Assembly (NCBI GenBank): GCA_009691845.1
Contig: SIAJ01000005.1
Span: forward strand, 1 to 64,000
Source: Gemmataceae bacterium
GTDB lineage: Bacteria > Planctomycetota > Planctomycetia > Gemmatales > Gemmataceae
Length of the DNA stretch: 64,000 nucleotides
Reading direction: 5' to 3'
The notes below the pieces were generated by a model. The model did not search any database, was not told where the DNA came from, and saw only the letters and a program-made list of their open reading frames with translations. A program made the position numbers and the translations under genes. Shown here piece after piece: positions 10,411-28,319 of the stretch (the stretch's first letter is position 1; every line of letters starts with the position of its first letter).

Positions 10411-10479
10411 GGGATAGACCTCTGGTCTGTCCGGGTTGGATCGGATGGTTCGAATGAGACAGACCAGAGGTCTCTTCCC
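10411..10479. repeat. Inverted repeat of the 'GACAGACC' family
   Basis: gggatagacctctggtctgt / agacagaccagaggtctcttccc; second copy at 25425..25497. Confidence 0.8.
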
Positions 10480-25424: not shown

Positions 25425-25497
25425 TGGGGACAGACCTCCGGTCTGTCCGACCCTCGCCGCTAGATGGCAGGAGGACAGACCAGAGGTCCGTCCCCAC
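25425..25497. repeat. Inverted repeat of the 'GACAGACC' family
   Basis: gtggggacagacctccggtctgtcc ... ggacagaccagaggtccgtccccac. Confidence 0.85.
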
Positions 25498-26969: not shown

Positions 26970-28157
26970 CTACCGACCCGCCATGAAGAGTCTCAGTCCG
27001 CCTGTTTCGGGACGTCCGAACAGGCAGAGCGTCCTGATCCCGAACGTTCGCAGTACCTTCCGCATCAATTCCGCGTCGTCCTTGGTGCCGACTTCCATGA
27101 TGGGCCGGCTTTCCTCGAATAGCCACCACGTCTCGCGTAGCTTCTGCACCTTGATCAGATCGGGACGCAAAGTGAGTTTGGTCACACCGAGTGGTTCGCC
27201 GTGAATCGGCCGGCCTTCGCTCAAGAACAGTGGAGTGCCAACCTCGCCGATGCGGGCCAGGTCGGTTGGTCTGGCATTCTGAATCACCTTGAAGGCCGCT
27301 CGGGCGAGCGACTCGTCCGCACCGAATCGCGCCAGTTCTTCGCTATTATGTGTAAGGATCCAGCCACGAGCGTCGCGCTTGGCTTCCAGCTTCTTGATAT
27401 CAAACGGCGTTTTCGGTCCCGCGTAGATGTTGCCTGGCAGAAGCAGCCCGCTCCGATCGGCATCATTCAGCACACCCAAAGGCATCGGGTTGGACGCCGG
27501 GGATACTTTGTCAATCGACACGTGCCGTGGGTCGAGCATCGGGTAGAGCATCGTTGGTTGCGGGCTGCCGATCACGCCGACTTGATTGAAGCCGTACTTC
27601 CAGCAAATGGTTGCGGCCCGTTTGGCCGCTTCCGCGTCCTTGCCGAAATTGAAAAAACCTTTCTGGCCATCCGTCAGCATCCAGGCTCCGCTCACCGCTT
27701 CGGCCCTCAGCGTACGTGCGGACAACGGCACGATCACCAGTCGGGCGTTCGTCCCCTTCGGAGCCTTGCCATCCGACAGCCAATATTCAAAGGCCGGTTG
27801 TGCTCCGGGAACGTTTCCGAGTTGATTGACTCGGAGATCCTGGATGATGCGGGCTGCCTCCTGTGCGGTCGCTCGATCGTTGCCAAAATCTTTCAGAATC
27901 GCTTTTCGAGTGTGGACCTTCCAGCGTCCTTCGATGCTGCTGGCCAGAACTTCATCCGGACTGAACGAAACAATTTCTTCGTGAACGACCTTGATGACCG
28001 CCTCCCGTACTCTCGCCGCTTCTGCGGGGGACAGGGATTTTGCGGGAAGATCGCGAGCCGGGTCGCCGAGCGAGGTTGGGAGTTTTCGCGGCGGCTGGGC
28101 AAGGCTCGGCCCGGCCACGCAAACACCCAGAACGACCGCGAACATCAGGCTTTTCAC
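26970..28157 (-). CDS. Secreted protein with about four internal ~60-aa repeats, function unknown
   Basis: Signal peptide MKSLMFAVVLGVCVAGPSLAQ; repeated pattern W-x-L/V...FG-x-D...A..A..x-x-G-x-x-x..IG-x-P (see findings). Confidence 0.8.
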   Translation of the reverse strand: MKSLMFAVVLGVCVAGPSLAQPPRKLPTSLGDPARDLPAKSLSPAEAARVREAVIKVVHEEIVSFSPDEVLASSIEGRWKVHTRKAILKDFGNDRATAQEAARIIQDLRVNQLGNVPGAQPAFEYWLSDGKAPKGTNARLVIVPLSARTLRAEAVSGAWMLTDGQKGFFNFGKDAEAAKRAATICWKYGFNQVGVIGSPQPTMLYPMLDPRHVSIDKVSPASNPMPLGVLNDADRSGLLLPGNIYAGPKTPFDIKKLEAKRDARGWILTHNSEELARFGADESLARAAFKVIQNARPTDLARIGEVGTPLFLSEGRPIHGEPLGVTKLTLRPDLIKVQKLRETWWLFEESRPIMEVGTKDDAELMRKVLRTFGIRTLCLFGRPETGGLRLFMAGR

Positions 28158-28319
28158 GACGATTGCCTCCAGGCGTAACTATCCTTCCTCGTAGTCGGGT
28201 TTGCGGCTTCCGTAGTTGAACAAAAAAAGCAAGCCAGGCTGTGCTGCCCTGCTTCTGCTGTCAATTTCTCCGAAACGCGAAAGCCTTCTCGACTGCTCTC
28301 GTGAGGGACCGGACTAAGC

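Follow-up and report, generated by a model that had tools for sequence, protein, structure and literature searches.

Here, we show that a 395-amino-acid protein encoded in the genome of a Gemmataceae bacterium contains a two-unit module twice over, in the order ABAB, and not four equal units. The protein carries an export signal, its module is shared with otherwise different exported proteins in several phyla, and the simplest history consistent with the sequences derives both copies from a single tandem duplication. The window, that is, the whole stretch of DNA analysed, spans 64,000 nucleotides of contig SIAJ01000005.1, and the features discussed are collected in Table 1.

Table 1. Features of the four-unit gene and its product, in window coordinates.
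Feature	Coordinates	Strand	Remarks
Gene, 395-aa exported four-unit protein	26970..28157	-	ORF; stop codon included in coordinates
Ribosome-binding site GGAGG	28166..28170	-	read in sequence, 8 nt before GTG
Signal peptide, residues 1-21 (MKSLMFAVVLGVCVAGPSLAQ)	28095..28157	-	cleavage near A20/Q21; inferred by eye
Linker, residues 22-64	27966..28094	-	largely disordered, one helix
Unit 1 (A-type), residues 65-130	27768..27965	-	profile comparison and model
Unit 2 (B-type), residues 144-209	27531..27728	-	with unit 1, module M1
Unit 3 (A-type), residues 252-315	27213..27404	-	profile comparison and model
Unit 4 (B-type), residues 330-394	26976..27170	-	with unit 3, module M2; recognisable by profile only

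The list of open reading frames gives GTG as the start codon. Read by eye, the N-terminus has a positive end, a hydrophobic core and an A-x-A-like site, evidently a Sec-type signal peptide that would direct the protein to export; the sequence MKSLMFAVVLGVCVAGPSLA, with the cleavage point immediately before a Q, can be read directly and agrees with the initial annotation of a secreted protein. The linker that follows is variable and often proline-rich in homologues. In the AlphaFold model it has a pLDDT below 50 at model residues 1-19 and a predicted helix at model residues 23-33.

A four-fold internal repeat had been proposed from four strings, all of which occur verbatim in the translation of the ORF, and the repeat itself is well founded. 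When BLOSUM62 local scores were compared with those of 1000 shuffles, units 1 to 3 were already alike in the single sequence (z=12.1 for units 1 and 2, 6.0 for units 1 and 3, 6.9 for units 2 and 3), and unit 4 was barely or not recognisable (z of 0.0, 2.4 and 1.1 against the other units). Profiles of the units built from 21-23 homologues related all six unit pairs with 98.5-99.6% probability and scores of 71.4-106.3, compared with at most 25.8 for column-shuffled and reversed profile controls (n=120); the strongest pairs were units 2 and 4 and units 1 and 3. The shuffle-level scores of unit 4 against units 1 and 3 could be taken to mean that the apparent repeat arose by chance or from the alignment and joins unrelated units, but this reading is refuted by the profile controls. 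The predicted fold is also the same in the four units and an independent module profile matches both halves of the protein, so that we give an artefact practically no credence. The units measure about 65 amino acids, including an N-terminal segment 'F-[DSN]-P..L.V'; the limits drawn initially (about 60 amino acids) captured the repeat and missed its N-terminal start, which lies about 10-14 residues earlier.

The hierarchy within the repeat, missed by the initial layout of four equivalent units, emerges from comparison with what we call the canonical module, an A-B unit pair of about 150 amino acids defined by a family alignment (A4). The profile of this module matches M1 at 27543-27980 (E 6.4e-31) and M2 at 27003-27407 (E 8.2e-11). 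Membership of the A4 family means a match over the whole module, A then B, and the window protein has two such matches. Unit 1 and unit 3 prefer canonical A to canonical B (scores of 106.5 against 86.3 and 87.8 against 77.4), and units 2 and 4 prefer B to A, the latter slightly (129.3 against 116.2 and 88.1 against 86.8). In a maximum-likelihood tree of 54 modules with a midpoint root, a branch separates all M1 modules from the rest (99/95), all M2 modules form one clade (100/99) and the canonical modules are all together (100/95). The single module of a sister family (L022, L023 and L105) joins M1 (97/82). The simplest history is that an A-B module was duplicated once in tandem, anciently and ahead of the radiation of the family, and that M2 was the faster-diverging copy; as the root is a midpoint one, the direction of this change depends on the single module of the sister family.

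The predicted structures are in keeping with this arrangement. The four-unit model (AlphaFold2 on the family alignment) has a pLDDT of 83.4 and a pTM of 0.53, and the model of the canonical module a pLDDT of 95.4 and a pTM of 0.87. DSSP assigns the order b-b-b-b-a-b-b (b, strand; a, helix) to all units of both models, which answers in the affirmative whether the four segments share a fold. In the model, and in the model only, the A and B units pack into a single compact, pseudo-dimeric domain; the overall pTM of 0.53 means that the arrangement of M1 relative to M2 is not fixed by the four-unit prediction. A four-blade fold had been suggested earlier, and repeat units of about 60 amino acids are indeed found in beta-propellers and solenoids, but each unit of the window protein is predicted to contain a helix of 12-14 residues. 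A beta-propeller, with its all-beta four-stranded blades, is therefore not supported; there was no match to a propeller family either. Foldseek returned no match in the PDB at E<=0.001 for the four-unit model or the A-B module, and none among viral structures at the same threshold for the four-unit model. Its top matches, to sliding clamps, were discarded (TM about 0.15).

The pattern of conservation differs between the two branches of the family. Canonical modules keep an E-D pair at the start of each unit, a Trp, a helix Ala and C-x-V-G-R-P after strand 5, and R60, P61, E82, D83 and R140 are near-invariant in them, but not in M1 or M2. In the lineage of the window protein, the hydrophobic core (W21, A40, G59, L69 and others) has been retained and the E-D and R-P residues have mostly disappeared, with unit 4 of the window protein retaining C-x-x-G-R-P. 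We take the E-D ... G-R-P motif, the most conserved polar one of the canonical module, to mark the canonical subfamily and not to define homology. In the alignment of 21 sequences of this lineage, the near-invariant positions are A, P, G, W, F, Y, L and I; no Asp, Glu, His, Lys, Arg, Ser or Cys is near-invariant.

The four-unit protein was found in 23 genomes among 59 relatives searched, the window's own included, with homologues in 22 of 55 genera and all frames unbroken. Across the order, 51 of 102 genomes have a match (42 of 71 of good quality), counts from which divergence may hide some members, and the gene nearly always occupies one place per genome. One gene (L106, at G062:C4:609001-610105) is split over two frames of 452 and 321 amino acids, either by an assembly error or by a real frameshift. 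Apparent extra domains in long homologous frames (up to 937 amino acids) proved to be an upstream out-of-gene frame together with the signal peptide and linker. A phylum-wide sample added only two further cases, both two-unit modules, one C-terminal in a papain-family peptidase and identical to a module in Candidatus Uabimicrobium amorphum, the other close to the N-terminus of a long protein that resembles a lipoprotein. The canonical module also occurs in Chlorobia (27 of 98 genomes searched), Cyanobacteria (2 of 244), a Coatesbacteria MAG, a MAG labelled Marinifilum and Rhodovulum plasmids; none was found in the viral contigs and phages of the viral collections searched. The record name Marinifilum sp. 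(Bacteroidota; L039 / G408) is probably wrong, since this genome falls in a small separate phylum with only 18 others among the genomes compared.

The canonical module usually occurs once per protein (twice in L039), in exported proteins and often at the C-terminus. Its partners include a papain-type peptidase (Peptidase_C1, E 1.6e-48), CARDB, cohesin, dockerin and PASTA domains, and, in Chlorobia and Cyanobacteria, two uncharacterised domains that precede it at the N-terminus. The N-terminal halves of many Chlorobia proteins (L083-L096) hold, ahead of the module, a conserved domain that is exported, bears the signature WGKCHPxDCDWG and has no match in Pfam. In an exported 522-aa ORF (L099), the module follows a region whose H-G and S-C-D motifs recall, by eye, a clan-CD cysteine peptidase; nothing in Pfam matched this region above threshold. 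On Rhodovulum plasmids (L098, NZ_CP015419.1 60000-92000, and also L044), the gene carrying the module lies in a contractile-injection-type cluster with genes for tail sheath, baseplate V, gp25 and baseplate J, and its product ends in an A-B module and also has two PASTA domains and what appears to be a membrane span.

The surroundings of the four-unit gene suggest no pathway or substrate partner, since no conserved neighbours were found around it in 20 other genomes. Recurring matches on the opposite strand nearby were shadow frames of the gene itself. In the window, the gene is followed on its own strand by a metallophosphatase-like ORF and preceded by an intergenic stretch. Elsewhere in the window, at 25428-25493 just upstream of an HslV-like ORF (and at 10412-10432), we observed a dispersed palindromic element, GGACAGACCTCCGGTCTGTCC, with an inverted copy 45 bases on. 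It has 37 matches in the genome at <=2 mismatches, compared with 0 for the reversed control pattern; copies are often inverted pairs about 35-75 bases apart, and the element looks like a repeat of the REP or MITE type.

The initial annotation recognised no named family, and searches of Pfam, NCBIfam, PHROGs and PADLOC likewise gave nothing above threshold for the module. Three weak candidates were set aside: YjbR (PF04237; 18.9 bits in one distant relative against a gathering cut-off of 30.1, none in the window protein), WGR (PF05406; E 0.066 in one of 21 members, weak and isolated) and PDB 8fjf_A 'H10' (E 0.54 with the single sequence and 0.0025 with the profile, over one stretch of 61 residues, not credible). 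No paper was found for the motifs FVGRPN, SHWMFDFG or WGKCHP. The domain family appears to be genuine and undescribed in Pfam 2025, NCBIfam 20, PHROGs, PADLOC and the PDB, and may exist in other resources.

With respect to function, we regard it as evenly balanced whether the window protein is an exported, non-enzymatic, probably two-headed extracytoplasmic binder or adhesion protein. According to this proposal, the module would be a binding or targeting part for an extracytoplasmic ligand, a role that we infer from its partner domains and from the lack of conserved residues of catalytic type. Duplicated once in tandem in this lineage, the module could have become a protein in its own right, borne on a flexible linker and probably acting as a bivalent binder in the periplasm or at the cell surface (adhesion, matrix or scaffold). 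The adhesive partner domains speak for binding only through guilt by association, and a function deduced from the canonical module might not hold in this lineage, in which E-D and G-R-P are mostly lost. Peptidoglycan is an unlikely ligand in a Gemmataceae host, given that most Planctomycetales are reported to be without the genes for its synthesis (PMC8567305). It is an improbable extension of the proposal that the A-B module combines a fold absent from the PDB with a specific, widespread extracellular ligand, serves secreted peptidases and a contractile-injection-type cluster, and forms the bivalent surface receptor of this lineage.

Other roles can be imagined for such a protein. Export, repeats, a variable proline-rich linker, fast divergence in which core residues alone are kept, and a stand-alone gene in one copy per genome would all suit a structural protein of the planctomycete envelope (matrix or outer layer), the repeats being a rigid spacer with no specific small ligand. 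We think this possible, if rather doubtful: a gene present in 42 of 71 good-quality genomes of the order, even if divergence hides some, is unlike that of an essential envelope protein, and a module that moves among unrelated architectures would seem to serve a specific task. Since one canonical module forms the C-terminus of a papain-family peptidase and that of L099 follows the putative clan-CD peptidase region, the module could instead be directed at proteases, as inhibitor, chaperone or substrate-recognition part, and the four-unit protein would then be a periplasmic protease inhibitor or regulator. This seems unlikely to us, however, as most partners are not peptidases (CARDB, cohesin, PASTA and the two uncharacterised domains), no peptidase gene is among conserved neighbours in this lineage and neither cystatin nor any other inhibitor family was matched in Pfam. 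An enzyme of some unrecognised type is very improbable. Pockets could exist between the A and B units of the confident module model, but no catalytic-type residue is invariant or near-invariant in the 21 sequences, which disfavours such a reading, and there was no match to an enzyme family.

The module thus represents a family that is absent from Pfam and NCBIfam, is patchily spread over several phyla and has a confident model without a PDB match. Cataloguing it would annotate exported proteins in about half of a planctomycete order and in 27 of 98 Chlorobia genomes, and would add a clear example of specialisation after a single duplication of a module. The family is ordinary in kind. On its own, it leaves views of mechanism as they are.

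Returning to the exported binder as the preferred reading, the likeness to known systems is one of working only for CARDB and similar adhesion-type domains, which are also exported, non-catalytic and combined with enzymes; CARDB has no sequence relation to the module and matches only separate parts of the carrier proteins. True relatives are closer at hand. Proteins with the canonical module have other domains attached, the E-D and G-R-P motifs and 2-4 Cys, whereas the window protein consists of two diverged modules with no further domain and has mostly lost both motifs. The sister family repeats the plan of the window protein, with a signal peptide region, a linker and an A-B module, but with one module in place of two. 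Finally, the module at the C-terminus of the Uabimicrobium amorphum peptidase is built of the same unit, in the same A-B order and in an exported protein, as in the protein described here.
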